Below, one piece after another: positions 3,564 to 56,034 of a stretch of 64,000 nucleotides of DNA. Within the stretch, counting starts at the first letter, position 1, and every line of letters begins with the position of its first letter. The stretch spans positions 4,526,001-4,590,000 of the forward strand of contig OZ005695.1 of the NCBI GenBank assembly GCA_963930775.1, in the 5' to 3' direction. Source of the stretch: Cliona cf. orientalis (lineage: Eukaryota; Porifera; Demospongiae; Clionaida; Clionaidae). A program made the position numbers and the translations under genes. The notes beneath the pieces were generated by a model. That model saw only the letters and a program-made list of their open reading frames with translations, did no database searches and had not been told where the DNA came from.

Positions 3564-5083
3564 TTATGGAAGAAATGGTCCCCAGAATCCTTCATATTTT
3601 CCCAGAGCAGCGGCACAAGCTTCTGGAGATTCCTTGCCACGATTTGGATTAAAGTACGTAGCTTGATAGTCAGCCAACTTTTTTTGCATATCCTTTAGTA
3701 CTTTGACCTCTGTTTCTGCCAGGTCATTCCTCTCTTCTGGATCTTCCATTATGTTGTACAGGCAACCAGTCCCACACTCCTGTCTATGAGTGATACCAGC
3801 TGGATGTGAGGTATTAGGATAATGTGGTCCAGTCCACCCAGCCTGAGGAACTGATCCAGTCAGAATCTTGTACGATCCACTAATCAGAGTTTTATTACTG
3901 ATGGGAATATCCACTCGAGGAGAGGTCATGTTTTGTCCAGATACGAGGGGCCACATGTTCAAGCTGTCCACTGGAGGAAGGTTAGCCTTAGCAGCTCTCT
4001 CGTCCTTCGGATCAATTCCAGCAAGAAAGCAAAGCGTAGCAAACCAGTCAGCAATGTGGATGTACTGGTCTGTCTTCTGTCCTCTCATTTTCTCGGGTAG
4101 AAATCCTCCAGTCACAAAAGCATTGACTCGCACGCCACCTTGCCAATCAGAGATCTTGCCTCCTTTGAGGGGGTAATTATTAGCTCCTCCGTTGGGGTAG
4201 ATAGGCCCACCATTGTCAGCGCTTACAACCAGCAATGTGTTGTCCCACATGTTTTTGTTCTTGAGAGTTGTATAGAGCTCTCCCATTACATCATCAAGGT
4301 ACTTGGCCATAGCGTGGTAGTACTGGCGATCATGGTCATCAATGAAGCTAAATTGTTTCAAATAATCATCAGGTACTTGAAGAGGATTGTGGACAATATG
4401 TGGAGCATAGTAGAGGAAGAGAGGTGAAGCAGTTGGATCATGGTTATTGACGACTTGCAGCAGATGACTCTTAAAGAGTGCCTCCTCATAATCAGTTCCA
4501 TTAACTCCATGAGCAGGCTTGTCAGTGTCCCACAGATCAACTATGCCAGTTTTGTTACATGCCAGTCGTATTTGAGTGTAATAGTCATTGACACCACCAA
4601 GGTATCCAAAGGAGCTCTCGAAGCCCCCCCAGTAGGAATATGATCTGGTGTAGCACCTCCAGCATGCCATTTGCCCACCATATGAGAAGTGTAGCCAGCT
4701 TCGTTTAGCCTTGTTGCAATTCCTGTCATATTGCGTGGTATACCAGCAAAACCTGAAACTGGGTCATCAGGATTATACATCCATATTACTTCATTTCTGT
4801 CGTTGACATGAATGGGTAGTCTTCCAGTTAAGAAAGCTGACCGTGATGGAGAACAAAACTGATAGGCGTAGTGCTGGTCCAGTTCTAGCCCTTGCTTGGC
4901 CAATCTGTCAAAATTTGGAGTGACCACTTCTTTAGTTGGAGGATCACGATGATAGCCAACATTTGCCCAGCCCCAATCATCCACCATCACAAACACGATG
5001 TGAGGTTTGCTGTCAGCAGCTTTGCTGCATGTCACACTGAGCAGTGTCGCAATCGCTAAAAGTAGAACTCTTTTGCAATACAT
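3564..5083 (-). CDS. Secreted arylsulfatase, intronless, interrupted by a one-base frameshift
   Basis: Type I sulfatase that would hydrolyse sulfate esters after conversion of a cysteine to formylglycine. The N-terminal frame (4541-5083) has a signal peptide (MYCKRVLLLAIATLLSVTCS), the metal-binding VDDWG (residues 34-38), and the formylglycine motif C77-S-P-S-R81 followed by LTGR, then MVGKWH. The second frame (from about 4630 down to TAA at 3564-3566) continues with GYLGGVNDYY, LFLYYAPH, SADNGG and GGVRV. The frames meet at a run of seven C on the plus strand (4624-4630); six would keep one reading frame of about 505 residues, normal for an ARSB-like enzyme. Either the base run is mis-sequenced or the allele is dead. 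No introns, unlike most neighbours. Confidence 0.85.
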
Positions 5084-5424
5084 TTTTAGCTCGGAAAAGT
5101 AGCTAGTGATTCACATGCATAGCCTTTTACTCTGTACAAAGCATAACTATAGCAGGTTTTTATTCATGGGACAGCATGTGATGTTGTTAATGTGGCATAT
5201 GAATATTTATTCCCTTTTAAGTCAGCATATGGATTTATTTTGCGGCTAGCATCAAAATTAATGATGTCCATGCCTCAGCTCTCGTTCTAGATAAATATTT
5301 ATTGGTTGCTATAGCATTATAGCTTATTATGCTGGTAACACTATGCGAATATCGGCCTTAGAAAACAACATAATTAATAGTAGAACCAACCAAAAATTTT
5401 ATACGATATGAAAAGTTTAGAACA
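5084..5424. other. Intergenic space between sulfatase and GH3 copy 1
   Basis: Contains the presumed 5' region of the sulfatase and the 3' end of GH3 copy 1. No coding or repeat structure was recognised. Confidence 0.5.
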
Positions 5425-13394: not shown

Positions 13395-13499
13395 TTCGAG
13401 CTTTGATCCTGAACCCTCATAGCCTCGTACCCAGGCCCTTTGAACCCTCACTGCTGAAAGCCGCCACACCAAACTGTCCCACGTACGTGCAGGAGAAAT

Positions 13500-15140
13500 A
13501 TGAGCGACTACCTAGATCTAGGAGGCTTTGGAAAGAAGGTGACCACCTCTTCCACCGACTGCCAGCTGTGGATGGACCGTGGCGTGGTCCAAACCTTCGG
13601 CTTCAATCGCGAGGAGGCCATTCGTTGTTTTCAGAAGGCACTTGATTTTGATGCCAACTGCGCCATGGCACACTACTTCATTGCTTACAACAATGCTGCG
13701 GACTACAACAACCCGGACGGTATGGACTACGCTGCTGGATACGAGGAGGCACAAAAGGCCCTGCAGATGGCAAAGGACACACCCCTCTCTGAGTGGGAAG
13801 TGGCCCTGATCGAGGCTCAAATGCATCGTTTCTGTTCACCTATCGGCGCCAAATCCCTCGAAGAATTGCACAGGAATTATGCCTCTGCAATGCGCCCAGT
13901 GTATCAGAAATTTGGAGAAAGTGATGTTGACATTGCTGCCATGTTTGCGGAGGCCCTGATGATGCTAGCGCCATGGAAGCTGTGGAGTGTGCCTCCAGAC
14001 ATCAAGCCAGCCATTCCCGAGACAGAAGAGCTAGTGGCAGTATTAGAGAAAGCTCTTGAGAAGCAGCCTACCCACCCCGGCCTGTGCCACTTCTACATCC
14101 ACACCATGGAGTTGTCGGCCATGCCCGAGAAGGCCCTACCTGCCGCAGACAGACTACGAGTCAGTGTGCCTGAGCAAGGACACCTCCTGCACATGCCCAG
14201 CCACATTGACATGTGGGTGGGCCAATACAAGGAGGCTATTGAAACAAACAAGATAGGTGTGGTGGCAGATGACGCCTATGTGGCTAAGACTGGGCAAAAC
14301 AATGAGTTCTACAAGATGTATCGCTTGCACAACTACCACTTCACGGTATGGGCGGCCATGTTTGACGGTCAGTTTACCACTGCCTTGGAGTATGCAGAGG
14401 CTGCTCAACAACAGCTTGGTCTTGATGCTGTGACGTATGTACTGGGGGATTTGCCGATTGGTTCAATGTATCTAGAAGCATTCACCAGTCTTCCTTGGCA
14501 TGTGTTGATCCGCTTTGGAAAATGGGAAGAGATCATCAGCTATCCCATAAAAGAAGACAGAGAATTGTATGCTGGTGCAGTTGCCACTGCTCACTATGCT
14601 CGTGGAGTAGCATTTGCTGTACTTGGCAAGACAGAGGAAGCTGAAGCTGAACGAAACAAATTCTATGAAGCTCTTCAAAACAAAGCTCTCAAGAACCGCC
14701 ATCTTTTCAACAATGTGATGCACGATCCTGAGAACCACACTGGCATATTAGATGTAGCAGAGGTTGTCCTAAACGGTGAAATTGAGTACTTCAAGGGAAA
14801 CTACCAAGAAGCCTTCCAGTATCTCCGCTTGGCTGTCAAGCGTGACATAGGTCTTTCATACGATGAACCATGGGGGTGGATGATGCCAGCTCGACACGTC
14901 CTTGGAGCCTTACTGCTTGAGCGAGGAGAAGCAGCTGAAGCTGAAGCTGTCTACCGAGACGATCTAAAACAATACAAGAATAACTTATGGTCGTTGCTTG
15001 GTCTACACCAAGCACTGAAGCTACAGCAGAAGACAGAGGAAGCCGAGCAGGTGCACATCGCATTTCAGGCAGCAAAAGCACGTGCTGATGTGAACGTTCA
15101 AGCATCTTGTATGTGTGCCACCAAGATTTGCTGTCAATAG
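13500..15140 (+). CDS. TPR-repeat protein, intronless (TTC38-like / bacterial-type TPR family)
   Basis: One uninterrupted frame of 546 residues from the ATG at 13500 to TAG at 15138-15140. Helical tetratricopeptide-like repeats run along its length: residues ~20-55 (CQLWMDRGVVQTFGFNREEA, AIRCFQKALDFDANCAMAHY), ~80-100 (GYEEAQKALQMA), a central HPGLCHFYIHTMEL and GHLLHMPSHIDMWVG region, and C-terminal YQEAFQYLRLAV and EAEAVYRDDLKQYKNNLWSL. The phrases HPG..HFYIH, LLHMPSHI and WSLLGL are typical of a TPR family common in bacteria and also present in eukaryotes. The function is probably protein-protein interaction. It differs from its neighbours in lacking introns and being visibly more GC-rich, which raises the possibility of lateral acquisition or retroposition. 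Confidence 0.82.
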   Translation: MSDYLDLGGFGKKVTTSSTDCQLWMDRGVVQTFGFNREEAIRCFQKALDFDANCAMAHYFIAYNNAADYNNPDGMDYAAGYEEAQKALQMAKDTPLSEWEVALIEAQMHRFCSPIGAKSLEELHRNYASAMRPVYQKFGESDVDIAAMFAEALMMLAPWKLWSVPPDIKPAIPETEELVAVLEKALEKQPTHPGLCHFYIHTMELSAMPEKALPAADRLRVSVPEQGHLLHMPSHIDMWVGQYKEAIETNKIGVVADDAYVAKTGQNNEFYKMYRLHNYHFTVWAAMFDGQFTTALEYAEAAQQQLGLDAVTYVLGDLPIGSMYLEAFTSLPWHVLIRFGKWEEIISYPIKEDRELYAGAVATAHYARGVAFAVLGKTEEAEAERNKFYEALQNKALKNRHLFNNVMHDPENHTGILDVAEVVLNGEIEYFKGNYQEAFQYLRLAVKRDIGLSYDEPWGWMMPARHVLGALLLERGEAAEAEAVYRDDLKQYKNNLWSLLGLHQALKLQQKTEEAEQVHIAFQAAKARADVNVQASCMCATKICCQ

Positions 15141-25312: not shown

Positions 25313-28300
25313 TTATCTTCTAGGTAAACCCCATTCAACAGGGTTTCCTGAAAAATCAGTAGGTATGATGTCACAGGGGTTCCTGAGATTGATACAAAGT
25401 CCATCAGCATCCTGTTGATAATGGGCTACAAGATCTTGAAGACTTTTGAACAAGGAACATTCAGAGATATAGAATTCTTGATCGCGTGATTGAAAAATCT
25501 TGTAGTGATAAACTCGATCCCAATCTCGAACAGAAAGTGCATATTCATCAGGAGTGCTTTCACTTTCTCGAATAAGATATGAGCCACGACTATTTGATGG
25601 GGACATGAGTTTATTCTCAGCATCTTTACGTTTGATTTGACCAAAAAACCACCTATACGAGAGGTAGGGTGAGGAGATAACAATATTACACTATAATATA
25701 TTCACAATAAATAGGAATGACTGAGGGTCCAGGAGATTATCTGCCCAATGCAACTTACTGTTCAGCAACATAGAAACTGTTCCTGTCCACCACATGGTTG
25801 CTGGGAATGTAGCCTTCCTTTCCACTGCCCTTCATGCGTGCCCACCACCAGTCACCATCATCACTATTGATAATGTACATCAAATCACCTTTCACAAAGC
25901 TCAAGTCCTTGTTACTTCTTGCATCATAATCATGCAATCCAATATAGATGGGATAGTTTGGAGATGCTTCTATCGTGGGTTGTAGGAAAGGGGTTGCTGC
26001 TGTTGGCTACAAATAATAATATTGCAACCAATGCTTAATCTGATTGTGGCATATCCAGTAGGAATATATTATAGATCAGCAGAAATATAATTTACTAGCT
26101 AACCTTGTGCTTAGATGACAACATGGGTACAATGGATACATCACGTGACTCCAATAGTTTTTGACTACATACTTGATCTATTGATATTACAATTGATTAT
26201 CAATGTGTAACTTTGAAAAGAAGCAATACTCACCTTTTGGAACATCATTAGCAGTAGCTGGATTTATCAGTAGAAATTCATCAAATGATGAGATACGTCT
26301 TGAGAGTTTGGTAGATGATGGAGGGTTTACTTGTATATTTGGATATGTCTCTGGTTGGGGTATGGGCTCATCATAATCACTAGAATCATCTGCTTCACTT
26401 TCATCTTCACATATAATGCTTCTGACGATTTCTGCAAAAATTTGAAAGTCTGCTCGTTCAAAGACATTCATCAATCTCTGATAGGTAGCTTCAGAACCAA
26501 GTCTTTGTTTCCATATGTATAGAGCTTCTCTCCTGTAGGCATGCATATGGGGAAATTTTAATTGGACTTTAGATGAATGTATATCTTACGATTGTAGCCT
26601 TAGATTTCTTGGATGCTTTGTGTGGATACTTGCAATATCAGCTGGTGTGAGTTTGAGTTCATCAGAAATCCGACCTTCCCACTCAGTCATTGAATCAGCA
26701 ATTTGACCAAGGTGCTTAGGAACTCCAAGGCCATCACCATCAATCACTTTATCCAATTGTGCTTTTCCTATAAAAATGTAGTAAGCTTAAATAAATCATC
26801 CTATATTATCGGACAGTACTATACCTGTTTTTCGATTCTTTTGGAGGTTCCAAATTTCATATCCCCTTGGTAGATTTCCACGTTTGTTTACAACCTTGCA
26901 TACCACCTTAAAAGGATTTTTGCTGTCGTATTCTATCTCAGCTGGATGCTTATGAGATTGACACGTAGGTAATGTGCAGTAAAACCCAAAGAAGTAGTTA
27001 CACTTCATGCACTGACTAGTAATAGTGCTCATGGCCTTCTTGATTTGCATGTATGTCATTTCACAAGTTTTATTCATTAGCTCATTTTCTTTCACCAGTT
27101 GATCTTCTTTTGAGTCTTCTTCAGATACTACTAAGCCTTCTGTTAAATCTGTTTCAGAGTAATAACTGATTTCCAAGTGAGTAGGTAGAATTGTCAACAT
27201 AATATTTCCATGTGCCTGGATAGCAAAGGAAACTTTATTTTTGAATATCTTATTTGGAATGATATTCCAACATCTTTTTGACCTCATTTCATTTGTCATG
27301 AGGTACTTGATCAGGGCCCCTGGGAGTCCACGAGGGCAAAAGCCACTCTTGAATCCAACAAGCAATGAAGGCCATAAATAATATTTGTTAGGATGTAGAG
27401 TAGAATGAGATTCTGGTGCATGGCAAAGTGCTGATGGGAAAAAATATTTGTCACCATCTTTATCTGTAAAGAATGCAGCTATTCGGAGGTAGTTCAATAG
27501 ATCTGTCAGCCATATAAATGGAAGCTGTGAATTAGAACTATGCTTATCACTAAGTTTTTGCATGACAGCCACAGGAATGATGCCTCTATGATGAAAATCC
27601 TCTATTTCCTTAGCATCAACATTTTCAATTGTGAACGTTTTGACAATGAGATCTGTGATTTTGTCAAAAAGCACTTGAGGATCTATTACCACAAGTGTAT
27701 TCAGATCTTTCACATTAAAATAGCGTACAAGACCGAGCTTTGAGTGAATGAATGACAGTGCTTGATTTAACTCATTACGATCTGTTATCCCACATTCCCG
27801 GGCAATGCTGAGACATCTATTGAATGTCAAAACCTGATCAGATTTGTGTTTTGCTCTGAGAATTAAGCTCAAAATAAGCCATGATGAAGGACACTCAATC
27901 GTAAATAATTCATCCTTTTCTACAGTGATCTGTACAGCTGATCGTATTTTCTGAAATTCATCATCATCATCTGAAAGATTATTAACTGTAAATATTAATT
28001 GCTTAGGATGCTCAGCAAACTGAATAGAACCTTGATCAAACAAAGTTGTTTGTCGTACACAACTTTGAAGCAGTTCATCCTTCCTTTGAATGATCTCTTC
28101 TGTACTATTTGGTGGTAAACAGTCTTTGTGTGTACCAACAAAAAAAATCTTGGGTTTTATTCTTGTTTCAGAATGTCTCTGCTGTTCACTTGTGAAGTGA
28201 GAAGCACTGATGGTTGCAAGTGTTTGGAGCAGTTCCTGCAATAACGTTCCTGGTGATTTGTAGGTCTCCACTCGGCCATCTGGATACTGATATCGGACAT

Positions 28301-31211
28301 CATAAGGCTTATCAAGATCATGATGAAGAGGGAATGTAACAAAAAAGATTGATGGTCCACAAACAAGGAGGGGTAGGTGTTCCTGAAATTCAATCTGTCC
28401 CCCTGTATTGGTGAGATAAAGGGACCATGATGATTCAAGGTGCTCTCGCAGTGCATCCATGCCCCGTAGCTTAATTGCCTGCTTAAAAATATCCACAGGT
28501 TCAACATCTGGTGAATACACAATTGCACTCCTTTCTTTTCCGTGAACTTTACTCACAGAGTTTTGATCGGATTTTCGTGCCTTAGATCTCTTGAATTTCT
28601 TGAAAAGCTTCACAATCCTGTATTTTGTCTTACATTTAGGACTACCAAGAGGAATGGAAGGAACAGGTGACTCAGTGCTAGTTATTGTAGGGCTTTCGGT
28701 TTGCTCCTTAATAATGTATTTGGTTACAATCGGTTTTGATATAGTGGTCATGGCAGAGTGATGCCTTGCTGTGGTCATGATCAGCTCAAGTGCCTCTTCA
28801 TCATACTGCAGCTTTTTCCACTCTAAATTATTAACAGCAGTGGCAACTGTGCACAGCTTTTTTACTTCAACTTTGACTATGCTTTCCAATACTCCAGTAC
28901 TAGGTGAAAAAGTATCAGATTTGGGCGGTCCATTTCCCATCAAACGACTCATCAAGGTATTTTTACCCGAACGCCCAGGACCAACAATCACACCATGAGC
29001 AATTGTATGATTTATTGTTCCTTTCTTTTTTATAGACTCTTCCATCACACATACAAATTCATCGTGAACCTCAGACATATATTCGTCATTTAAACACAAG
29101 TTGAAGTCTCTTCCAAGACTAAGGAGTTGTGAAATAATTTTGCACAGATCTGGATTTCCAGGCTCTCCCAAATTGTTTTCAGATAGGTCAAGTCGTCGGA
29201 GATGTTTACATTTCAATGAGAGTGCATCACTGAAAATTGCCAAGAAACCTATCGTCACATCATTATTCAATGAACCTTTTAGGCCTAAACTTTGTAGGTA
29301 ATCAAATGTGTCATAAGACTCAAGATGTTGCTGTAAAACTTGCAAGAAAGAAATTGATATGTGATTAAACGATAGATCAAAGTGAGTCACTGTTGGAGAG
29401 GTAGACTGTGTTAATGCAGATAGTATGGCTTTGATATCTGAGGTTGTTCCAATGTCACAGTTACGGAGGATAAGGACCTTTAAGGATTTAAGAGCAGCAG
29501 AAGCTTTGCTAAAGAAGTCAACTGCTAGAGAATTGCTGAGCCTGTTTCCGCTCAGATTAAGACCCCTGCTCCGAACAATGCTAGATTTTTCACACAGAGT
29601 ATTTGCTAGGTGATTTACATGTTCGGGTTTCAGATTGCTGTCTTGAAAGTTAATCTCCACTTCACTATTTTGAGCTATATTTTGAAGCACATGCACCATG
29701 GAATTGAAGTCATACACATCACGTGAGGGACTGAAACGTAATACTCCAGTAATGCTGATAGCTTCAACTACCTTCTGATTGACTACATTATGCTTTGCTT
29801 CATATGACAAATGGCAAAGGTCCATGTAGTAATTCTGTTTGGTAGTGCAATAAGCTGCTAATAAAATCTTCAAAACTTGATCAACAACATCAGGATTCAA
29901 GTTGCCTACCTGATGAGCATAATTACTGACGAAAAAGTGCCAGAATGTTATAGCCATTGAAGTTTTACCTTTTCCCGCTACAAATTCACACATGAATTTA
30001 ACTTGTGCCTCTTTTGGCTGCTTTGATAGATGCAGAGCAGCAAGATACTCTTCAAAGCAAGGATGAATGAAAGGGGACGATGGGGTATCTCCAGTTTCTG
30101 CTATTGGCTTAGTTAAGCCAAAGTGTGAGATTTTTGATGATGTAAGTGCTGTAGAAGAAAAAGTGTTGCAACCTTTCTCAACGTTATTGAAAGCTAGTTC
30201 ACATACTTGCCACCACAACTGCTGTAGCTCCTCAGGAAGATCATGATGGCTAGATAAGCTACCCTCATGAGGATAATTACCATCTATGCTAGCTGAAACA
30301 ACCATCCAAACCAGCTTTGAATACAATTTCGTCATGGTATCTGGTAGGGGTTCAGCATCACTAGCTTGACAAACTATAGCAAGATTGAGAGGAGTAATAC
30401 ACGTATTTGCAACTAATGGATTATCATTCAGCTGTGCTTTGAGGTAGTGGACTCTCTTTAGGTCACCTGCAAATTCTAACTGGACTATAGGCTCAATGGA
30501 TTTTCTGTCAAATCCCGTCAGTGTAATTAATCGATCAATTGCAGTCTGCATAACACTTGTCTCAATGTAGCCTGGTCTGGAGGTAATAAGAACTGTGATG
30601 GATGAAGTAGGTATGATATCGCTGCTAAATAGAAGAGAGTGTAAAAACGACCCTGTTTGGCACTGGGAGTCTTGAAGCTCTTCCCACCCATCAGCTATAA
30701 GAAGAATATTGTGTTGCCCATTACTCTTCAAGTAGCTAGCCACTTTGGAGCTAGAACCTGGTTTGAAATCAGCATACAGCACATTGAGCAGCCCTGAAAG
30801 GGAACTAGCTGAAGCTACATTCCTGGAACTAAGGGGTAATAAAATAACAAGCTGAAAATCCTGAAACTGCCTTCCATTAGCCCACTCCTCCACCACTGAC
30901 AAGCATAACATAGTTTTACCCATGGCAGCTTCACCCTGTAAAAGGATTGTTTTACGGACGGCGTTTGGTTTCACGTTAGTAACTGAATATTTTTGATCAA
31001 ATATGCTGCTGAAAGGTACACGAACCCGCTGCTTCCCATCATTACTTCCCACTTCAGTGTCAGGCTCTATCTCTGATATTAGCTCTGATAGTTCTAATTC
31101 ATCCACATAAACATTCTTCAAATTGCATGCATAGTGCTTCATATGGTTTATGCATACGTTGCGACTCTTTTCTTTGATAGCAGTTACAACACTTGAAATT
31201 TCTTCCTCCAT
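25313..31211 (-). CDS. NACHT-LRR-ROC-COR-Death-SH3-SH2 multidomain signalling protein
   Basis: Six exons: 26825-31211, 26590-26767, 26234-26532, 26104-26177, 25759-26006 and 25313-25652. All introns are GT-AG and the phases (1,2,1,0,2) match, giving 1841 residues. Domains: NACHT with Walker A GEAAMGKT (93-100), Walker B LLIADGWEEL (170-179) and FIHPCFEEYLAALHL (381-395); LRRs ~545-690 (LNLSGNRL, LILRNCDIG, FDLSFNHIS, LDLSENNLG). A ROC-like GTPase has P-loop GPGRSGKN (744-751), NTGGQ (935-939) and GTHKD (1026-1030); it is split by a Ser/Lys-rich insert (~835-895). COR ~1108-1300; Death ~1480-1560 (WEGRISDELKLTPADIASIH); SH3 ~1668-1722 (GDWWWARM, GYIPSN); SH2 1730-1820 (WFFGQI, GSYLIRES with Arg1757). 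It ends at TAA after a Src-like linker, without a kinase. A cytosolic sensor/switch is inferred. Confidence 0.85.
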
Positions 31212-37336: not shown

Positions 37337-39603
37337 TTAGGACAGACTAAAGTGAGCAACTTCAACTTCATTGACGGTAGTAACACCTCTACCAACGTCA
37401 CTGCCACAGTTCCCACCAATAACCATCATCTCATTGGTTGGGAGGACTACAACAAGACTCCGCCATCTAGCAGTTGGCATGTTGCTGATGAGATCCCAGG
37501 AATTAGTTGTTGGGTTGTACTTGTGAGTGGCAGATGAAGGCTCATTATCTTCATCACGTCCACCAACTGCCAGTAGCTCTCCATTGACAGCTGCACAGGT
37601 AAAGTGGCAAGCTGGGGCATCAGCAACTCTGTGCCATATTGATGATGATGATGATGATGATGATTGTAGTAGTTCTATCAGTGAGCAGGTCAGCACTGAC
37701 TTGGTCAGGCCCTTGTCATCACATCCTCCCAGCATATACACTTGATCTCCACAGATGGTCATTGTTGCATCAGTGTAGGGGTGAGGATCCGGAGGCTGGC
37801 CACTGTTGACCAGACTAGACTTTTATTGTCCATCACTTCTACTGTATTTAGCCTATCAGCAGATGACAATCCAACTGTCCCACCAGCCACAATGAGGTAT
37901 TCCTTTGATGTCACTGCAGTTGCGTCCCACCTCTTTGTTGGCATGGCTGGGAAGACTTCTTTGTAACCTGGCAGACTGAGCAGTTTGTTGGTGTGTGTAT
38001 CCTTGTCGAAAACCATCTCACATCCACCAATAGCTGTCAGTTGACCAATGATGATTGCTAAACTACTATACACATAGGGACATTTTGGAAGTTTGCTCCA
38101 TTTCTTGCTAGATATATTGTAGGAACACACTTCACCATCCGCCCAGTTCATGAAATAAGCCATATCCCCATCCACCACAGCAGCTCCCCTGCTCATCCCA
38201 AGTGGTGCCTTGCCTCCATCCCTCCAGTTTAATGTAACTCTGTGTGGGTGTGGCTTGTGGTCTACTTCGAGAGATGGTTGTACTGGTAATTGTTTCCTTG
38301 ACTCTCTCTCCTGGAGTTGTCTTTCCCAAAGAGGAGGAGGTGGCTTTAGACTTTGCTGACTCAGCTGTTGTTGCAGTTGTTCCACCTGCCTCTGTAGAGA
38401 GTGGTTAGTCTGCTGGATCTCTGCCGTCACTTCCTCTTGTTCTACCAGCTTTTGGTTCAACTTTTGAATCAGTCTCTCTTGTGATGCCCTCTCTTCTTGA
38501 AGTTGTCTCTCCTTTTGTTGCAACAATCTATCTCGCTCGTGGATGTCATCATCTTTCTGTTGTAATGCTCTATCTTTTTCTTGTACTGATCTATCTTTTT
38601 CAAGAACTTGTCTGTCTTTTTCTTGCAGCTGCTGTGTCAGCAGAAGAACTTGATCACTATTCAATTGAACTTCATTCTGTATTTGCTGAATGCTCTCTCT
38701 GTACTCCCTGGACTCCTTGAGATCAACCAGCCTCTGGCACAGCTCCTCACTAGAAGGTCGATCATTCTCCTGGTAATGGAGGCAGTCCACTGCAATTGGT
38801 AGCAACATGTGGGTAGGATTTATCTTATCAATATGATTTTTTCTCCTTTCGGTTTCAAGTACGGGCATATCCATTGTTCCAGTTGGAGATCTAGAGTCAG
38901 GAATAAGTTGATTTCGAGGTCCAGGCTCTGGCCACAGTCGAGTGCACACTTGTATCATGATCACACCCTCAGAGAAGCAGTCCAGCTTCTTTGTGTACCT
39001 TGGTGGCTCCCTCAGTGCTTCTGGAGGCATGTAGGCCAGCGTTCCTGGGCACATGGTGAGAGGGGTCATGCTTGGAGCTGCACTAGCTAGCTTGGACATG
39101 CCAAAATCGGTCACTTTAACTCTTCTCCCAGCAATCATCAGCACATTGTTGCTGGAGAGGTCTCGGTGGATGATATCATTGGAGTGGAGGTAGGCGACTG
39201 CTAAAGCAATATCATGACAGATATCCACTTGAATACAGTAGGCTAGTGACTGTTGTGAGCATTCAAGCATCTTTATCAAACTCTCATCAAGCAGTTCCAT
39301 CAGCAGCACTGGTAGTCTGGACTCAGGATCTCTAGTTATGCCAAGGTACTGCACAATGTTTGGATGTCTGATACTTTCAAGAAAACCACACTCTTGTTGA
39401 AATCTACTCATGATCGTGCCTGCTCCTGGGTCTGCAGGGTCTAGGATCGTTGGGTGGAGGACTTTAGCAGCACAGGGCAGCTGGTCACACTTGGCCTTGT
39501 AAACAGCTCCATAGGAGCCATGGCCAAGGTGTTGGCTCTTGTTGATGTGAAAGCTTTGGTAGTGAAAGATATGTTGTTGAGCTTGAAGCATTTGATGGGT
39601 CAT
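37337..39603 (-). CDS. TKL-type kinase with coiled coil and kelch repeats, one frameshift near the C-terminus
   Basis: Intronless. The long frame (37759-39603, 614 residues) has a protein kinase domain at ~20-300: Gly loop LGHGSYGAVYKAKC, Lys in CAAKVLH, HRDLSSNNVLM, TDFGMSKL and GTLAYMPPEAL, closest to tyrosine-kinase-like enzymes. The usual SFG of the F-helix region reads SEG. Next comes a ~110-residue coiled coil of repeated QEKDRxxxEKDR units, then kelch repeats (AVVDGDMAYFMNWADGEVCS, WDATAVTSKEYLIVAGG). The frame stops at 37759-37761, but kelch sequence continues without loss in another frame (TMTICGDQVYMLGG, LLAVGGRDED, TARWRSLVVV, MMVIGG) to TAA at 37337-37339. A single-base change around 37775-37790 would account for this. 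It may be a sequencing error or a real truncation. Confidence 0.8.
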
Positions 39604-40224
39604 GGCACTTTGCAGCTAGCTATATTATACACGCAGCCAATACTTCACCGATAAGGACACATCTTTAAGCGCATGTCTACACTATAACTGTATCACACAA
39701 TGGTCAGATGACCCTGCTGTTGTTTTGTCAATCATGATCACCTATGCTATACACACACTCATAGGGGAACTGTCCCAATACAACTGTGACCACTCATCTT
39801 TTGACTATTTAAGCATTAATTTGCACTGAATACCTGGTATCATGCTTTGGTAATATAAGCATGTACTGTTCATCTTTGCTACGTACATTTATAGCTATAT
39901 ACCATGAGAAGTTGACTACAAACAAGTGAGTCACTGAAACCATGCATAGTGCATGCAGCACAGCCAGCATATAGATGCGTGCTTCTCAAACTTCAGGCAG
40001 GTACAGAGGTGTATTCCTAAGAAAGAACTCATCTCCGATCACGAGAGTGAGTAAACATGGCCTATCGAGTACACCAGCTCACTATCTCATCCGCAACCAT
40101 ACTACGCCTGTACACATTGTTTGCTTTCTACAGATTGCTTAATATCGTGCATGAAGGGGCTGGGCACGAGACTAATCACATAACACTGAGGAATATAATC
40201 ATATTATTATAATAATAATATATT

Positions 40225-47054: not shown

Positions 47055-50000
47055 TCTCTTTCTCTCTAATTCCCTCCTCTTCTCTCATGGTGCACATTTA
47101 GCTTCCGTCGTACTTGGTGCCATCCCACCCAACGCCAAATTGCCCCTCTCAGATAAGACCCCAAATATGGCTAACACATCCGGTATATCCTCTGCATTAG
47201 CTGCCACCACAGCAACAGAATCTGCTACCGCTTGGCTTAATCTGCTACTCCCCAAATCTGGCTCTGCTGCAAAAGAGAAGAAAGTATGGATTGGTAATGG
47301 TCTTCCTGCCATCCCAAAGAAAATTCACGATAAAATTGCTAATTGGGAATTCATTGACCTAGCTGATCTAAAACCAGCCGGTACTCTCGACTCCCTCAAC
47401 CCAGAGCCGGACCCTCAAAATTACATAATCCTGCCAGGGTTGGAGATAGCACGGGCCCGCCGCAAGCCCATAAAGGACATCATCACGTGGGTCCAATGTT
47501 TTGTGATATTTATGGCAGCTGTCCAGCAACACAACCCGGGAGCAATTAATGACTTGTTAGCATACATGTTCACCATAATCAGAGCGGCGCAGGAATTCGA
47601 GGATCCAGCCTGGAGAAGCTACGATGAGGCATTCCGTGAGAAAGCGGCTGCAACAGGAAACCGCAAATGGTCAGAAATCGACTCACTCATTTATAATAGG
47701 GTCTTCACAGGCCATGCCAGAAAAATCCCAATGGCTACCACCAACACAACTGGCCCCCGCCCTACAGACCTTCCTGGGCCTTCACATTCACCTGCGCAGC
47801 ACACATATTACTCCGAGCCTCCTCCTCCTAAACGCGCAGCACCCATGAGTTCTAATGCATCACGGAGCGACATATGCTACCTCTTCAACTGCGGCGGATG
47901 CCGTTTCGGTAATGTGTGCAAATTCCGCCACATGTGTTCAATCTGCTCGGGGCGCCACCCAAGGGTGTCATGCAAAGCTGGTAGACCAGCCCCACAGGGT
48001 CCAAAAGAGCCAATGATGGAGAAAGCCCCACTCTCCAAGCAGTAGCACAAATGGCAGTGTAATTGAGGAATTGGAACGATAATAATAGCATCTCTACCTA
48101 TTAAACTTTGATTATCCAACTATACTATCGTATGCCCCCTTCCCCCCTAATACTTAAGTACATGACTGCTTCTCCACTCTCTCGGGGGAGTGTGACCTAT
48201 CACTCTTTAAGCAGCAGTCTTTCCTCATCTCTTATTACAATAATAATACAATTTTTTCAACAAAACTACACCCCTTGCATGCATACATACATGTACTATA
48301 TTACAGGTCCACTAATTGCTGGTGCTAATCAATATACGCCGGAGCTTAAGCAGCTGGATAGCTTCCGCCCTTGCCACGATACTAAACTTCCAAGTAGCAT
48401 TACCAAAATCAACACACCCCTAAAGGTTGCAGCATGGGAAAAAGCACTTCAAGGCCATCCAGACACCGCATTCAGAGAATATGTGCTATGTGGTATTTCT
48501 GGGGGATTTAGAATTGGTTTTAATAGGAGACAGCCACTAAAATCATCCAGCAGCAACATGCGTTCAGCTCTGGATAACCCCCAGGTAGTACATGAATACT
48601 TAGAAAAGGAATGCTCACAGGGACACATAGCAGGCCCACTGCCACTGCACACACTCTCAGATGTCCAAATTAGCCCCTTCGGGGTAATTCCCAAATCCAG
48701 TCAGCCAGGAAAGTGGCGCTTAATTGTCAACCTGTCTGCCCCTGACGGCTTTAGCGTCAATGATGGCATTGATGGCAGCTTGACCTCTTTGACCTATGTC
48801 AAGGTGGATGACATCATAGAGCAGGTGCTATCATTGGGTAAAGGGTCACTCATGGCAAAAATGGATATTGAGTCAGCATTCCGCATTGTCCCTGTACACC
48901 CAGACGATAGGCCATTGCTAGGTATGAAATGGGAGGGACAGCTCTATATCGATCTCACATTGCCATTTGGCCTCAGATCAGCACCCAAAGTATTCAACTC
49001 AATTGCAGACTCACTTGAATGGATTGTTAGGGCAAGAGGAGCTGAGCTTACACATCACTATCTTGATGATTTCATTGTTGTAGGGGCACCAAGATCGGGG
49101 GAATGCGCGGCCAATCTAGAGATCCTCCTCGAGACGTGTAAAGACTTGGGTATCCCTGTAGCTCAACACAAATGTATGGGCCCCACCACTTACCTGGTCT
49201 TCCTGGGAATCCTTATTGATACACAAAAAATGGAAATTAGCTTGCCTGAACAAAAATTAGCCCAGCTGAAGGAAATAATAGTAACCTGGAGGGACAGGAA
49301 AGATTGTACCAAGAGGGAGTTGCAATCGCTTATCGGCCACCTCCAGCACGCAGCAACAGTAGTGCGCCCAGGAAGGAGATTTGTCCGTGGCATGCTCTCC
49401 CTGCTGCGCGTAGCACAGAAATCCCATCACCATATCAGGCTCAATACATCGTTCAGGGCGGATTTACGATGGTGGCATACTTTTATCTCAGCATGGAATG
49501 GGATCTCTATTCTTTACCAGCTCAAACGGCAATCCCCTGACGCTGAATTATTTACAGACGCCTCTGGATCATGGGGCTGTGCAGCTCTGTGGGAAAAGCA
49601 GTGGTTTCAGCTTCAGTGGACAACTGTGCCATCGTTTGCCTCAGCCTCAATCGCCCCCAAAGAATTGCTCCCCATTGTGCTGGCAGCTGGTACATGGGGG
49701 CATCTCTGGGGAGGAAAGACCATCCTTTGTCACTCAGATAATGAAGCAGTTGTAGGCGTAATCAACACAGGCTCTTGTAAGGAGCCACATCTGGCACATA
49801 TGATGAGGTGCCTTTTCTTTATTGAGGCTAAATTAAACTTCATTATAACAGCCAGACACATCCCCGGGAAGAGTAATACAGATGCAGACACACTCTCAAG
49901 GGGCGGCCATCAATCCTTCCTCTCTTCCCACCCACAGGCAAATCTTCTACCCACACCACTAAAGCCAAGTCTGATCGAGAGTCTAACAGCAGTGACCCCA

Positions 50001-52416
50001 GACTGGATGTCGCCAAGCTGGATTCATTCGTTCAGCACCTCCTTAAACACGCCCTAGCCCCCTCAACACTTCGCTCCTATGACGTAGGTCAAAGACGTTA
50101 CCTTGTATTTTGCACTAAGATTAACACATCACCCCTACCTGTTAATGAAACCTTACTGTGCCGATACGTAGCCAGTCTAGCCAGTGAGAATCTTCAATTC
50201 CAATCTATCAAGTCCTATCTCTCAGCTGTAAGGTACATGCAGATTACTTCAGGGTACGGGGACCCAGATATGGCATCCATGCCAATTCTGGAATATGTAC
50301 TAAAGGGAATCAAGCGCGAACAGGCAAAACAAAAGCCACACTCGACTCGCGCCCGCCTACCCATCACCCCAACTATCCTTCGGAGTCTGAGGTCCGAATT
50401 AAACAAGGAGCCATCTAAGTGGAACAACGTCATGTTGTGGGCTGCATGCTGCACATGCTTTTTTGGTTTCTTACGCTCTGGAGAAATAACCGTTCCCTCC
50501 TTGAGGGACTATGATAGCACAGCCCATCTCTCACATGGAGACGTGACGTTTGATTCCCAATGCACCCCCACAATGGTGCAAATTAACATCAAGGCCTCAA
50601 AAACCGATCCTTTTCGAAAGGGGGTAACCATATGTCTGGGTCGCACAAATAACGACTTATGCCCCGTGGCTGCTTTGGCTGCATACACCACCATCAGAGG
50701 CTGTGAGGATGGTCCTTTCTTTTATCTTGAGAACAGGGTGCCATTGACACGGGAGCAATTTGTTAAGATGACCAAAGCCAAACTTGCAGCAGCCGGAATC
50801 GATTCTACTAGTTACTCGGGACACAGCTTCAGGATAGGCGCTGCCACAACGGCATCTGCATATGGAGTCGAAGATTCACTCATACAAACTTTGGGCCGCT
50901 GGAAGAGTGCAGCATACCTCCTATATGTACGAGTCCCAAGAGAAAGACTGGCAAATCTATCCACAGTTTTAGCAAAATGATAGTATGGTCTGTATGAATG
51001 CTTTAATGAAAGATTTGAAAGAGAAATATTATAAGGTTATGCTTGGGGGAGAACTCAGTACGAGTTCCTTGGGCCATTGATGGAGGTGGGGCACAGAACG
51101 TCAGGCCCCGCCTCCATCATCTCCACCCAAGCATAATTAACAGAATTGGTAACTATAACTTGCAAGCAGCCTCGTGCCCAGGCTCTCGAGGGGCGGGAGG
51201 CTATGCTGCATCCAGCAACACCTGGCTCACCCTCCACACACACATCTGATACTCTCCAGTATTATTGTGTGTGAAGATAAACCCGAGGAGTGTTAAATGA
51301 CGTTTAATCCATTAAACGAAGTTAACATAGAGGGTGAGCCAGGCAGCGCCGCTGCATGACGGTATATACTACATGCGATCATGCTAATGCATGCTGTAAG
51401 CCTCATAGGTGGGCCACGCCTGCATGATTATGCGCATGCGTTCGGCTATACGCGCCAAGAAATCAGCTGTTTGTGTGCCACGCAAACCGGCGTTGCAAGT
51501 GGAAAGAGAAGCCGCGCATCATCAGAGTCAAGCAGCCAGGCCCCAAGTTGACTCCCTTCCCACCCAACCCCAAAAAATAATAACAAATAAATAAATTCCG
51601 TCTAAAAGACGTGATCAGAGTCAGGTGTTCGGCCATTGATGGAGGTGGGGCACAGAACGTCAGGCCCCGCCTCCATCATCTCCACCCAAGCATAATTAAC
51701 AGAATTGGTAACTATAACTTGCAAGCAGCCTCGTGCCCAGGCTCTCGAGGGGCGGGAGGCTATGCTGCATCCAGCAACACCTGGCTCACCCTCCACACAC
51801 ACATCTGATACTCTCCAGTATTATTGTGTGTGAAGATAAACCCGAGGAGTGTTAAATACATATAGCATACATCCCTGGCAGTAGAGCCAATAAAGCTTAG
51901 CTTTGTCTCCAGGTCCTTCCCTACTCGGGGGAAGGACTTGGTACACACCAACTACACAGAATCAGAATATCTGTAAAACACTATTTACTCAGCAACTGTT
52001 TCTGATTATGCCCTTGGCATGCAGGCAAGCAACCACAGAAAATACTCACTGTGGCACTAGTGCAGTTATGCACAGTCAGTGTGTACCAGCTCAGGGCAGC
52101 CCGGCCAGGAATGAGGCTAAGGATAACTATGTACCTTAAGAAGAGATCTAGCAGCTTGTATTGTGAAGTTGTAGTACTCAGTAAAACTTATCTCCTTCCA
52201 GTCACTGCCACCGGTCTCCTTGAAGCACAAGGCTGCCTTCATAGGGAACCTTTTCACCGTGTCTTGAAACATTTCACTGACTGTTACTGGATCTGCAATT
52301 TCCAGCCCTTGTGTGCTCCTCAGAACTTGTGGAGGTTCGCAAGGTTTGGGTGAACGCACTCTACATCCTGGAGGGTACTGGGGAATTATAGATGCTGGCA
52401 AAATATGTGTAGCCAT
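41453..52416 (-). CDS. Long-chain acyl-CoA synthetase, bubblegum (ACSBG) type
   Basis: Adenylate-forming enzyme that activates fatty acids as acyl-CoA. Thirteen exons with consistent phases: 52135-52416, 45326-45414, 45077-45197, 44930-45010, 44760-44861, 44593-44640, 43381-43619, 43024-43327, 42805-42955, 41977-42116, 41726-41911, 41603-41663 and 41453-41538, encoding about 629 residues. Family landmarks are VTVSEMFQDTVKRFP near the N-terminus, phosphate-binding SGTTGRHKSV, EAYGMSENTGGIT, GWLHTGDIG and IIGRLKD, KKEVPFLSNVML, and the C-terminal ILRKDFSSFGGELSETMK. The phosphate loop departs from the usual SGTTGxPKGV (His for Pro, Ser for Gly), and the segment usually reading YLPLSH is not conserved (CYMSCLNL). 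The 6.7-kb first intron carries the Ngaro element in antisense orientation; other introns are 50-970 bp. Confidence 0.88.
43620..44592. other. Large intron of the acyl-CoA synthetase gene
   Basis: A 973-bp intron between the exon with the phosphate-binding loop and the next. No gene was seen in it; it contains the 16-bp-stem hairpin at 43925-43974. Confidence 0.6.
43925..43974. repeat. Hairpin with 16-bp perfect stem
   Basis: ATCTATTAATTGCGAA at 43925-43940 pairs with TTCGCAATTAATAGAT at 43959-43974. It is intronic, with further CTCGCAATT repeats alongside. Confidence 0.75.
45722..45987 (+). repeat. Ngaro split direct repeat A1
   Basis: 266 bp, the left terminus of the element, starting atgacgtttaatcc. 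It contains TGCGCATGCGT (45856-45866) about 145 bp upstream of the gag ATG and so is likely to carry the element promoter. Confidence 0.9.
45856..45866. promoter_or_regulatory. NRF-1-like motif in the Ngaro A repeat
   Basis: TGCGCATGCGT, repeated in A2 at 51431-51441. It is the same motif found upstream of host genes in this window, so the element may use a host-like promoter. Confidence 0.45.
46011..48045 (+). CDS. Ngaro gag-like protein, spliced
   Basis: Exon 46011-46245 (MADSGENTDG start, Pro/Asp-rich, then LSAEQMEALASQV) ends at a consensus donor GGAG/GTGAGC. Exon 47102-48045 follows an ideal acceptor preceded by a long TC tract. The join is in phase and gives about 392 residues. The second exon begins ASVVLGAIPP and includes a conserved capsid-like block (WVQCFVIFMAAVQQHNPGAI). 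Near the C-terminus is a Cys/His zinc knuckle region (CYLFNCGGC, CKFRHMC, CSGRHP) likely to bind nucleic acid. Without splicing, the second part would start at 46849 and read through low-complexity sequence, so the spliced model is preferred. The intron carries the minisatellite at 46440-46740. Confidence 0.75.
46440..46740 (+). repeat. Degenerate hairpin-forming minisatellite in the gag intron
   Basis: About seven units of 35-50 bp share a core like catcggcacagggctgatgg followed by gctaataaa. In several units the core is self-complementary (CATCGGC with GCCGATG). Confidence 0.7.
46997..47070 (+). repeat. Pyrimidine (TC)n tract before the gag acceptor
   Basis: A nearly pure CT run of about 70 bp that ends some 30 bp before the acceptor at 47100-47101 and probably serves as an extended polypyrimidine tract. 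Confidence 0.8.
48108..50057 (+). CDS. Ngaro reverse transcriptase / RNase H
   Basis: An open frame of 649 residues. The RT palm motifs are KWRLIVNLSAPDG, MAKMDIESAFRIVPVHP, LPFGLRSAPKVFN and the catalytic HYLDDFIVVG. The thumb region (LVFLGILIDT, LQSLIGHLQHA) is followed by RNase H with acidic residues in LFTDASGSWG, APKELLPIV, CHSDNEAVV and SNTDADTLSRGG. The N-terminal ~65 residues are low complexity; an acceptor-like ttacag just before GPLIAGANQY (about 48306) suggests the true product may start there through splicing. The 3' end overlaps the recombinase frame, which lies in the -1 frame. Confidence 0.88.
   Translation: MIIQLYYRMPPSPLILKYMTASPLSRGSVTYHSLSSSLSSSLITIIIQFFQQNYTPCMHTYMYYITGPLIAGANQYTPELKQLDSFRPCHDTKLPSSITKINTPLKVAAWEKALQGHPDTAFREYVLCGISGGFRIGFNRRQPLKSSSSNMRSALDNPQVVHEYLEKECSQGHIAGPLPLHTLSDVQISPFGVIPKSSQPGKWRLIVNLSAPDGFSVNDGIDGSLTSLTYVKVDDIIEQVLSLGKGSLMAKMDIESAFRIVPVHPDDRPLLGMKWEGQLYIDLTLPFGLRSAPKVFNSIADSLEWIVRARGAELTHHYLDDFIVVGAPRSGECAANLEILLETCKDLGIPVAQHKCMGPTTYLVFLGILIDTQKMEISLPEQKLAQLKEIIVTWRDRKDCTKRELQSLIGHLQHAATVVRPGRRFVRGMLSLLRVAQKSHHHIRLNTSFRADLRWWHTFISAWNGISILYQLKRQSPDAELFTDASGSWGCAALWEKQWFQLQWTTVPSFASASIAPKELLPIVLAAGTWGHLWGGKTILCHSDNEAVVGVINTGSCKEPHLAHMMRCLFFIEAKLNFIITARHIPGKSNTDADTLSRGGHQSFLSSHPQANLLPTPLKPSLIESLTAVTPDWMSPSWIHSFSTSLNTP
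49877..50980 (+). CDS. Ngaro tyrosine recombinase (integrase)
   Basis: The frame is open from 49877, in the -1 frame relative to RT with a 180-bp overlap, and ends with TGA at 50978-50980. The first ATG is at 50237, but the N-terminal SAM-like core-binding part (LDSFVQHLLKHALAPSTLRS, SIKSYLSAVRYMQI) lies upstream of it, so translation probably uses frameshifting or splicing. Catalytic residues of the tyrosine recombinase family are visible: Arg in CFFGFLRSGEI, Lys in IKASKTDPF, His-x-x-Arg in GHSFRIGAATT, Trp in LGRWKS and the nucleophile Tyr in AYLLYVRVP. The enzyme would integrate a circular DNA copy. Confidence 0.87.
   Translation, partial: YRCRHTLKGRPSILPLFPPTGKSSTHTTKAKSDRESNSSDPRLDVAKLDSFVQHLLKHALAPSTLRSYDVGQRRYLVFCTKINTSPLPVNETLLCRYVASLASENLQFQSIKSYLSAVRYMQITSGYGDPDMASMPILEYVLKGIKREQAKQKPHSTRARLPITPTILRSLRSELNKEPSKWNNVMLWAACCTCFFGFLRSGEITVPSLRDYDSTAHLSHGDVTFDSQCTPTMVQINIKASKTDPFRKGVTICLGRTNNDLCPVAALAAYTTIRGCEDGPFFYLENRVPLTREQFVKMTKAKLAAAGIDSTSYSGHSFRIGAATTASAYGVEDSLIQTLGRWKSAAYLLYVRVPRERLANLSTVLAK
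51072..51298 (+). repeat. Ngaro split direct repeat B1
   Basis: 227 bp from ggccattgatgg to gtgttaaat, repeated exactly as B2. It contains an inverted repeat (ggaggtggggc with gccccgcctcc). Confidence 0.9.
51297..51562 (+). repeat. Ngaro split direct repeat A2
   Basis: 266 bp, identical by eye to A1. It abuts B1 with a two-base overlap (AT), the likely recombination core. Confidence 0.9.
51631..51857 (+). repeat. Ngaro split direct repeat B2 (right terminus)
   Basis: 227 bp, identical by eye to B1. Its end at gttaaat marks the right end of the element. Confidence 0.9.
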
Positions 52417-54846: not shown

Positions 54847-56034
54847 TCATACTTGGGTTTCAATCTTATCAATGTTATCAAAATCATTACATTCAATAGG
54901 AACAGTATCAATGTTGTCTGCATTATCGACTTTGTCAGGGTTGTCAACAGTTTCTCTGGTCTCTGTCTGGTCAGTCTCAGAGTCAACACAGCACCAGTAC
55001 CACATCACCAGAACTGCTATAGCAATCCCGACAACCGCCACAAAGAGTGGTACTAGAACAACAACTGCATACGCCCAGTGTCTCCTACTGCAGCTGGTCC
55101 TGATGGAAACATTCTCAGTCCAGTCCACCTCCTCTGGAATAGTGGTGACCACTAGTGCTTGTTGAGAGCCAGTGCCATAGGGAATGTCCACGCTACAGGT
55201 CTCTCCTGTAGAAACAGCACAGTGATCACGGATGGTGGAGTTAATGTCTATTGGTGGTGACTGGTATTCAAATCTATCAATAGTCAGTGTTAAGTCGTAG
55301 AAAAGTTCGATCTTATCAAAGGAATTGTGGATAATGAAGTAATACTCATCTTCTTCGGTCACAGTGTATACCAGTGTCTGTGTCTCGGAGCACTCTGTGC
55401 TTACACTCTGAAACAGCTCTGCATGGTTCTCCCCTGGTTCATCTCCCCACCTGTTCACATTGGTGTTGCCCTTCACCACATAGACGTCCAGAAACACCCG
55501 ATGGCAGTCAGTACACACATCCAGACTCACTTTGGAGTTGGGATAGAGGTGATACTGCCAAAAGTGGTAGTTGGTTTTATCCAGAGTGTCACTGGCGTTG
55601 ATGGTGAAGTTATTTTGGTCGGTGAGTGGGGGAGCAGAGTCAACGAGAAACAACGAAGCACCAGTACCCTGTGATTCAACACTGAAACGTACACTGTTAC
55701 AGAAGAATGATTGAAATGATATCAAACGGCTGTCTCCTGGCGAATACAAATCAGTTGCTATATCTGACTTGGGCATTTGCTCATTCCTGACCCCAAACCC
55801 TACCGATAGTCCAACGATAAGGCAGAACAGAGCTGCAAAACCAGAGATTAAAAGGCACTGGAAGCAGGCCATTGCCTTGCCACATTCACAGTCACAATCG
55901 TCGCTACTGCTGCCTCCATAAGTAGTCCTGCTCCTGAAGCTGTAGCTCCTTGAACTGCTCCCTCCAAAGCCTCCCCCTCCCCCACCCCCTCCTCCTCCAC
56001 CGCCAGCACTACCACCTCCAGAGGGCATGGTCAC
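54847..56034 (-). CDS. Two-TM glycine-rich surface protein, intronless
   Basis: 395 residues in one frame. The N-terminus is very Gly-rich (residues ~6-25, with a run of 12 glycines), then Ser/Arg-rich, then a Cys cluster (DDCDCECG). A membrane span follows at ~57-82 (LLISGFAALFCLIVGLSVGF). The middle ~240 residues are extracytoplasmic in character, with N-glycosylation sites (NFT, NAS, NST, NVS), paired cysteines (VCTDC) and the motif EEDEYYFIIHNSF. A second span lies at ~325-352 (YAVVVLVPLFVAVVGIAIAV), and an acidic Asp/Asn/Thr-rich tail rich in DNxD repeats ends the protein. The span-ectodomain-span layout recalls APD1-4-type proteins, but there is no RING domain and this resemblance is weak. 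Function unknown. A scrambled partial copy lies just downstream. Confidence 0.7.
   Translation of the reverse strand: MTMPSGGGSAGGGGGGGGGGGGFGGSSSRSYSFRSRTTYGGSSSDDCDCECGKAMACFQCLLISGFAALFCLIVGLSVGFGVRNEQMPKSDIATDLYSPGDSRLISFQSFFCNSVRFSVESQGTGASLFLVDSAPPLTDQNNFTINASDTLDKTNYHFWQYHLYPNSKVSLDVCTDCHRVFLDVYVVKGNTNVNRWGDEPGENHAELFQSVSTECSETQTLVYTVTEEDEYYFIIHNSFDKIELFYDLTLTIDRFEYQSPPIDINSTIRDHCAVSTGETCSVDIPYGTGSQQALVVTTIPEEVDWTENVSIRTSCSRRHWAYAVVVLVPLFVAVVGIAIAVLVMWYWCCVDSETDQTETRETVDNPDKVDNADNIDTVPIECNDFDNIDKIETQV

Follow-up and report, generated by a model that had tools for sequence, protein, structure and literature searches.

Structure and domains of the window gene

We analyzed a 64,000-nucleotide stretch of the genome of the sponge Cliona cf. 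orientalis (positions 4,526,001-4,590,000 of contig OZ005695.1, here C7; hereafter the window), and in particular a gene on its minus strand that joins domains of NLR, ROCO and Src-family proteins. The whole genome, 216.8 Mb in 149 contigs, was searched for its relatives. From position 31211 to 25313, six exons amounting to 5526 nucleotides with the stop codon encode 1841 residues in one open frame. Exons were set by open frames and GT-AG sites and then corrected against paralogues; in the resulting model all introns are GT-AG and the exon phases are consistent (Table 1). An exon-4 acceptor at 26171 was rejected, as the paralogues favoured the 26177-type acceptor, present in all 14 copies read. 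Six exons with matching phases and a product of 1841 residues had been proposed in an initial annotation of this DNA, and both were recovered here, the length following from the exon 4 corrected against paralogues. The locus fits a single gene of a putative NACHT-LRR-Roc-COR-Death-SH3-SH2-pseudokinase fusion family, of which the window copy lacks the kinase, and we hold the anatomy of gene and family described below to be very probably correct.

Table 1. Exons and encoded domains of the window gene. Positions are those of the window, residues those of the protein; values after Pfam accessions and protein names are E values.
Feature	Position	Strand	Evidence or boundary
Exon 1 (short N-terminal region, NACHT, LRR, Roc-like region, COR)	26825..31211	-	one open frame, donor phase 1
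NACHT ATPase domain, residues 88-246	30474..30950	-	PF05729, 2.2e-17; NLRP3 match, 4.9e-8
Leucine-rich repeats (LRR), about residues 550-691	29139..29564	-	LRR_6, 23.0 bits, just below the 23.4 cut-off; PDB matches
Roc-like region, about residues 740-1090	27942..28994	-	P-loop GPGRSGKN, NTGGQ and THKD, invariant in 8/8 paralogues
COR-A domain, residues 1108-1223	27543..27890	-	PF16095, 5.4e-8
Exon 2 (Death domain, first part)	26590..26767	-	GT-AG, phases 1 to 2
Death domain, residues 1480-1560, split by intron 26533-26589	26418..26717	-	PF00531, 7.6e-8
Exon 3 (Death domain, second part, and acidic/proline linker)	26234..26532	-	GT-AG, phases 2 to 1
Exon 4 (74-nucleotide linker, junction to the Src-like part)	26104..26177	-	length, splice sites and open frame kept in 14/14 copies read
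Exon 5 (SH3 exon; SH3 domain 25800-25937)	25759..26006	-	PF00018 (SH3_1), 3.9e-14
Exon 6 (SH2 domain 25418-25651, Src-type linker, stop)	25313..25652	-	PF00017, 9.7e-25; stop precedes the kinase start position of paralogues

The encoded protein was scanned with Pfam as a model of 1839 residues, two residues shorter in exon 4 than the final one, and compared with the PDB by phmmer. The NACHT domain carries a Walker A (GEAAMGKT) and a Walker B (LLIADGWEE) motif, both intact by eye, and its region matched NLRP3. Leucine-rich repeats lie C-terminal to it, as in NLR proteins, residues 521-714 matching the LRR of NLRP1 (E = 5.6e-6) and ribonuclease inhibitor (0.0078). The SH3-SH2 part is of the Src type, with matches to Fgr (1.1e-46) and Src (2ptk, 2.4e-43), and the alignment to 2ptk extends to the end of the query, inside the SH2-kinase linker. 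These matches bear out the NACHT, LRR and Death assignments of the initial annotation and the closeness of SH3 and SH2 to Src that it had noted; NACHT and COR, on whose detection in a hidden Markov model search of the translated product it had staked its reading, were both matched.

The COR-like region it had seen is likewise a COR domain. The window scores for COR-A, 33.3 bits in the protein scan and 36.6 bits in the six-frame genome search, fall just on either side of the curated cut-off of 35.3. All eight members of a paralogue set drawn from five chromosomes matched COR-A (E no higher than 0.1, the best being 1.3e-9), and the best PDB match of the paralogue profile was the Chlorobium Roco protein 3dpu in the same region (E = 0.0025; 6hlu, 0.0099). 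Ahead of COR-A, in the order of ROCO proteins, lies the second P-loop region that had been called ROC. Here the Pfam Roc model gave no match at E up to 1 in the window protein and none in the paralogue set; the call is based on the P-loop, TGGQ and THKD motifs, which we take to be those of Roc, in all eight paralogues, and on the position before COR-A.

The same motifs argue against the "GTPase switch" of the initial annotation, which appears doubtful. In 8/8 paralogues the P-loop lysine is followed by Asn instead of Ser or Thr, and Asn also takes the place of the switch-II Asp (GKN, NTGG). We take these positions to correspond to S17 and D57 of Ras, both magnesium ligands, and the patterns presumed to mark intact ligands in GTPases (GK[ST], DxxG) are absent from all eight. 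Magnesium-dependent GTP cycling is therefore unlikely, and the Roc region would be a pseudo-GTPase scaffold, likely a pseudoenzyme.

Throughout the genome at least 150 COR-A matches, a very large Roc-COR expansion, and at least 104 NACHT matches were found. Many of the COR-A matches lie in open frames longer than 1400 codons.

A tandem family ending in a probable tyrosine pseudokinase

The genome was searched with the SH3-SH2 part, exon 1, Death plus exon 4 and the kinase family as queries. A tandem array of 13 copies was found on the plus strand of C7 at 1.885-2.145 Mb, about 2.4 Mb from the window gene. At its 13 places the exon-1 match is followed by Death (13/13), SH3 (12/13), SH2 (13/13) and a kinase match (12/13); the SH3 match is missing in c12 (2,129,127), and for c9 (2,075,487) no kinase match was listed, its SH2 frame entering the N-lobe and then breaking. 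A further copy on the minus strand of C15 (3,241,827-3,235,219) has the same exons in order, with Death, SH3, SH2 and kinase all present. The recurrence of this order in the array and on C15 indicates that the arrangement in the window did not arise by chance. On C19 (2.32 Mb) exon-1 and Death pieces were found; SH2, SH3 and kinase are matched there no closer than about 45 kb away, on the opposite strand. Exon 1 of the window gene shares 78-86% identity with its matches in the array, on C15 and on C19, and 47-51% with the wider family; its SH3 exon is 53-64% identical to 12 array copies and 61% to C15.

Complete six-exon models with the same phases were built for an array copy (copy A, L039, 2113 residues) and for the C15 copy (copy B, L040, 2090 residues). 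Their Pfam series ends in PK_Tyr (1.2e-83 and 5.8e-85, respectively), and COR-A is just under the cut-off (30.6 and 34.9 bits). In 10 of the 13 array copies and in C15, SH2 and kinase share one open frame with no intron between them. In the window, by contrast with these copies, exon 6 stops in the SH2-kinase linker. Its DNA similarity to copy A reaches as far as 25358, and beyond that point the comparison showed neither a kinase domain of the Src family nor a relic of one. We conclude that the window gene is a shortened, kinase-less member of a family whose full form ends in SH3-SH2-tyrosine kinase, which makes capture of the Src part as a whole probable. The other significant kinase match in the window belongs to a separate kinase-Kelch gene at 37.8-39.6 kb (37340-39615, minus strand), in which one open frame (37762-39615) encodes a protein kinase and, after it, Kelch repeats, and an overlapping frame (37340-37822) encodes further Kelch.

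The kinases of the fused family are likely pseudokinases, a class in which some members retain activity. The DFG motif is absent from 13 of the 13 fused copies that cover the position, which reads NFE, NLE, ILK, ICK, MFE or VFK, and HRD is changed to HRN in three array rows and in c12. Among unfused Src genes of the same genome, L023, L029 and L034 keep DFG and L037 reads NFG. The FLVR arginine of SH2 was kept in 14 of 15 rows including the window; this count retains c5, c9 and c12, and its exception, c5, is a broken-frame reading. The phosphotyrosine pocket of the window SH2 looks kept, which makes the phosphotyrosine half of the initially proposed wiring to phosphotyrosine and proline-rich partners plausible. 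In a tree of the SH2-kinase region, from which c5, c9 and c12 were left out for their broken frames, the 11 fused copies and the window SH2 grouped in a single clade (100/100) that excluded five unfused Srcs and a paralogue on C8.

The single-gene fusion proposed initially was supported at sequence level by the Pfam matches, the recurrence of the order and the conservation of exon 4, with Roc recognized by motifs only. Exon 4 was read in 14 copies: the window, 12 of the 13 array copies (c10 being uncovered) and C15. All share the 74-nucleotide length, acceptor and donor, contain no stop and end in AAG|GT. All also contain a Met codon, preceded by 17 full codons. This Met, together with an in-frame stop that exon 3 would reach if its donor were left unused, could suit a pair of neighbouring genes: the first would be of NLR-ROCO-Death type and finish with exon 3, and the second, a small SH3-SH2 adaptor here and a Src-like kinase in the array, would begin at the exon-4 Met. 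Such a separate downstream gene does not account for the 17 codons ahead of the Met, which, like the acceptor and the length, are kept without a stop in 14/14 copies and would be needless in a non-coding leader, and the same pairing is seen at all 13 places of the array and again on another chromosome. The constancy of exon 4 is thus a strong argument for one gene, as far as genomic comparison can tell, and we consider two genes very improbable.

No SH4-type myristoylation start, the N-terminus of Src-family proteins, was found in the three full models, where SH3 joins exon 4 at phase 0. In two distant paralogues, on C17 (L048) and C4 (L049), Death is followed by an exon-4-like tail (by eye, unscored); no SH3 or SH2 was seen by eye in the following 4-5 kb, and no downstream SH3-SH2 match was among the matches listed. 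These tails suggest that the Src exons were joined at the exon-4 donor.

The C8 paralogue (L041, C8:1196400-1202700; also L050) has an exon 1 that is 48% identical; by eye, Death, SH3 and SH2 domains and then a degenerate kinase come downstream of it. Its introns are others, lying inside SH3 and SH2, and it perhaps records a Src gene captured earlier or on a second occasion. It was left out of the family count, and a shared origin of its Src part with that of the array was neither accepted nor rejected (approximately unbiased test, p = 0.221). Two short peptide patterns were also used to look for relatives, in one scan each of GTDB genomes and of IMG/VR; 187 and 181 stretches, respectively, matched a pattern, none of them confirmed by tblastn.

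Evolutionary rates and the possible role of the Src-like part

Ratios of nonsynonymous to synonymous divergence (dN/dS) were obtained as NG86 counting estimates, mean dN over mean dS, from the seven copies with exon 1 and 21 pairs unless stated otherwise. Within exon 1 the ratio was 0.21 for NACHT, 0.40 for the NACHT C-half, 0.18 for LRR, 0.26 for Roc and 0.18 for COR, with dS of 0.29-0.48 for LRR, NACHT, Roc and COR; without c5 these values were nearly unchanged (0.20, 0.39, 0.18, 0.26 and 0.19, respectively). The N-terminus gave 0.17 (20 pairs, dS near 1.5), and the mean dN of the LRR, 0.063, was the lowest among the regions measured. For the SH3 exon the ratio was 0.74 (0.70 over 45 pairs from all 10 available copies). 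SH2 gave 0.46 with c5, whose misread broken frame inflates dS, and 0.55 (15 pairs, six copies) or 0.64 (91 pairs, 14 copies) without it. The kinase gave 0.60 (15 pairs), and with all copies 0.72 for the N-lobe (91 pairs) and 0.48 for the C-lobe (90 pairs). Most pairs fell below 1, which was exceeded in 8/91 pairs for SH2, 4/45 for the SH3 exon and 16/91 for the N-lobe. The unfused Src pair L023/L033 showed 0.05 for SH2 (dS saturated) and 0.09 for the kinase (dS 0.96). A fast Src-like part and a slow LRR are the opposite of what is expected if the LRR is the recognition surface.

The best overall explanation, to which we assign a probability of about 0.55, is an NLR that would use a dead Src module as a phosphotyrosine reader or bait and Death as its output. 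An NLR-ROCO-Death gene with a short tail may have acquired Src SH3 and SH2-kinase exons through splicing from the exon-4 donor (phase 0), and the fused gene would then have multiplied in tandem. The NACHT ATPase would act as an oligomerising switch and Roc-COR as a non-cycling scaffold for dimerisation and relay, while clustered Death domains would recruit death-fold partners as the output. The Src-like module might be a non-enzymatic input, either a reader of abnormal tyrosine phosphorylation or a bait that draws microbial proteins which attack the ligands of Src or mimic them, and the window protein would carry an SH3-SH2-only version of it. We place the Src part on the input rather than the output side tentatively, at somewhat less than even odds, because its dN/dS exceeds those of the exon-1 domains and of the unfused pair.

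The module could also be an output adaptor that, after NACHT oligomerisation, gathers phosphotyrosine and proline-rich partners, or active Src, at a death platform, as clustered SH3-SH2 or SH3-SH2-pseudokinase, its fast evolution reflecting relaxed constraint after duplication. The retained SH2 arginine, the open SH2-kinase frames of most array copies and of C15, and ratios mostly below 1 agree with this, as does the ability of synthetic death-fold-SH2 chimaeras, cited in a passage of PMC2575513, to redirect tyrosine-kinase signals to caspases. A shared output part would, however, be expected to be more conserved, and here conservation is weakest in the Src part, with the LRR showing the lowest dN; we regard this alternative as a sizeable minority possibility, a little behind the input placement. 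An animal NLR with an integrated decoy is the boldest form of the reader-or-bait explanation: a whole Src kinase would have been captured and have lost DFG in every readable copy, the dead SH3-SH2-kinase would be a variable bait, with Death as output, for microbial proteins aimed at Src signalling, recognition would have shifted from the LRR to the Src part, and in the window the bait would be trimmed to SH3-SH2. The full-length paralogues, which have lost DFG, do have a degenerate host-protein module fused to an NLR; taken with all its steps we judge the proposal rather unlikely.

The kinase loss, the lack of a relic, the stops in several other copies and an SH3-SH2 divergence outpacing that of exon 1 might instead mark the window copy as a decaying, functionless duplicate that lost its kinase on moving 2.4 Mb from the array. 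Yet its 1841 codons are open at an exon-1 dS of 0.363 from copy A, with dN of 0.085 and a ratio of about 0.23, and every splice site is GT-AG; decay is therefore improbable.

Several observations weigh against the overall explanation. Exon 1 is full-length without a stop in the window, in C15 and in 5 of the 13 array copies; c8, c9, c10 and c12 have one exon-1 stop each, c13 has exon 1 in two pieces with a stop in the second, the matches of c2, c3 and c11 are open but partial, and in c9, c12 and c5 SH2 or kinase frames are broken. The contrast between the Src part and exon 1 is incomplete, as the NACHT C-half is also high, and the unfused pair L034/L037, one member of which lacks DFG, gave 0.24 for the kinase, dS being saturated in the remaining unfused comparisons. 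Ratios mostly below 1, as counting estimates, fit relaxed constraint as well as diversifying selection, and the rate pattern is compatible with a bait or reader and also with relaxed constraint. Finally, two positions of the SH3 peptide groove, which we take from comparison with Src to be usually Tyr, read His in the window, so that SH3 binding may be altered. For the allorecognition role raised in the initial annotation our analysis found no evidence.

Neighbouring loci and comparison with known systems

Two further loci are candidate fusions only. On C4 (L043, C4:7511000-7517500) an SHP-like (by eye) SH2-SH2-tyrosine phosphatase lies about 4.6 kb past an NLR-ROCO Death exon on the same strand, and another SH2 match follows the NLR-ROCO copy at C4:7464124 after about 13 kb. 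On C5 (L042, C5:2285300-2292000) a Death exon precedes two kinases, one of Ser/Thr type and broken, the other a tyrosine kinase that by eye keeps both HRD and DFG, and match coordinates suggest an array of this arrangement at C5:2.25-2.64 Mb. Elsewhere in the window, pieces of a sulfatase gene (3567-5110, minus), a frame with weak, below-cut-off TPR matches (13458-15137, plus) and an APD1-4-type E3 ligase frame (54850-56064, minus) were found. At 48105-50977 (plus) a reverse transcriptase frame adjoins one whose matches to phage-type integrases are weak and under the cut-off; the DNA has a higher guanine-cytosine content there, and this may be a DIRS-type retroelement.

Among the top-ranked results of the open-licence literature, where subscription papers are largely missing, we found nothing that describes a fusion of NACHT or ROCO with SH3-SH2 or with a tyrosine kinase. 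Its parts resemble known proteins. LRRK2 has LRR, Roc, COR and then kinase, an order matched by the full-length paralogues, in which the kinase is instead of the Src tyrosine type without DFG and set apart by Death-SH3-SH2, and NACHT is added. ROCO proteins with Death domains, such as DAPK1 and MFHAS1-like proteins, share Roc-COR followed by Death; here NACHT-LRR stands in front, the Src part behind, and the magnesium ligands of Roc are replaced. Src kinases share the SH3-SH2-linker-kinase order and strong similarity, whereas the fused family has no N-terminus of its own, sits behind an NLR and has lost DFG, and the window copy has no kinase. The structure of Src-like adaptor 2 (SLA2, 4m4z) was among the PDB matches of the SH3-SH2 part; SLA2 is a small stand-alone adaptor with SH3-SH2 and no kinase, as in the window, where the pair is the tail of an NLR.

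Among sponges, the NLRs of Dysidea avara (NLRX/NLRD) share the NACHT-LRR core, a large expansion and COR, named in the legend of figure 2, among the listed domains (PMC12909245). Death is N-terminal there and follows COR here; SH2, SH3 and Roc are absent as whole words from the main text of that paper, and no Src-like module is mentioned in the text covered. Amphimedon TRADD-N proteins, likewise expanded in a sponge, join death-fold domains to kinase, SH2 or SH3 modules at the C-terminus; their core is TRADD-N, and the passages covered do not describe NACHT-LRR-Roc-COR (PMC8195603). A sponge-specific Src family is also known. The combination found here does not appear in the passages covered of PMC12909245, PMC8662651, PMC2575513, PMC8195603 and PMC8242945.

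If our reading is correct, NLR sensing, ROCO scaffolds and Src-type phosphotyrosine signalling, which are usually separate, would be tied into single polypeptides in many tandem copies, giving a natural counterpart of the synthetic death-fold-SH2 adaptors through which signals from tyrosine kinases are diverted into cell death. It also becomes testable in an animal whether NLRs bait with captured degenerate host kinases, as proposed for plants. An integrated decoy, if true, would be the animal counterpart of plant NLR-decoy fusions, in which a module of a host signalling protein is fused to the NLR and proposed to act as bait. The fused host module is alike in both; the plant receptors are built on NB-ARC, and the bait role is hypothetical in the sponge family.

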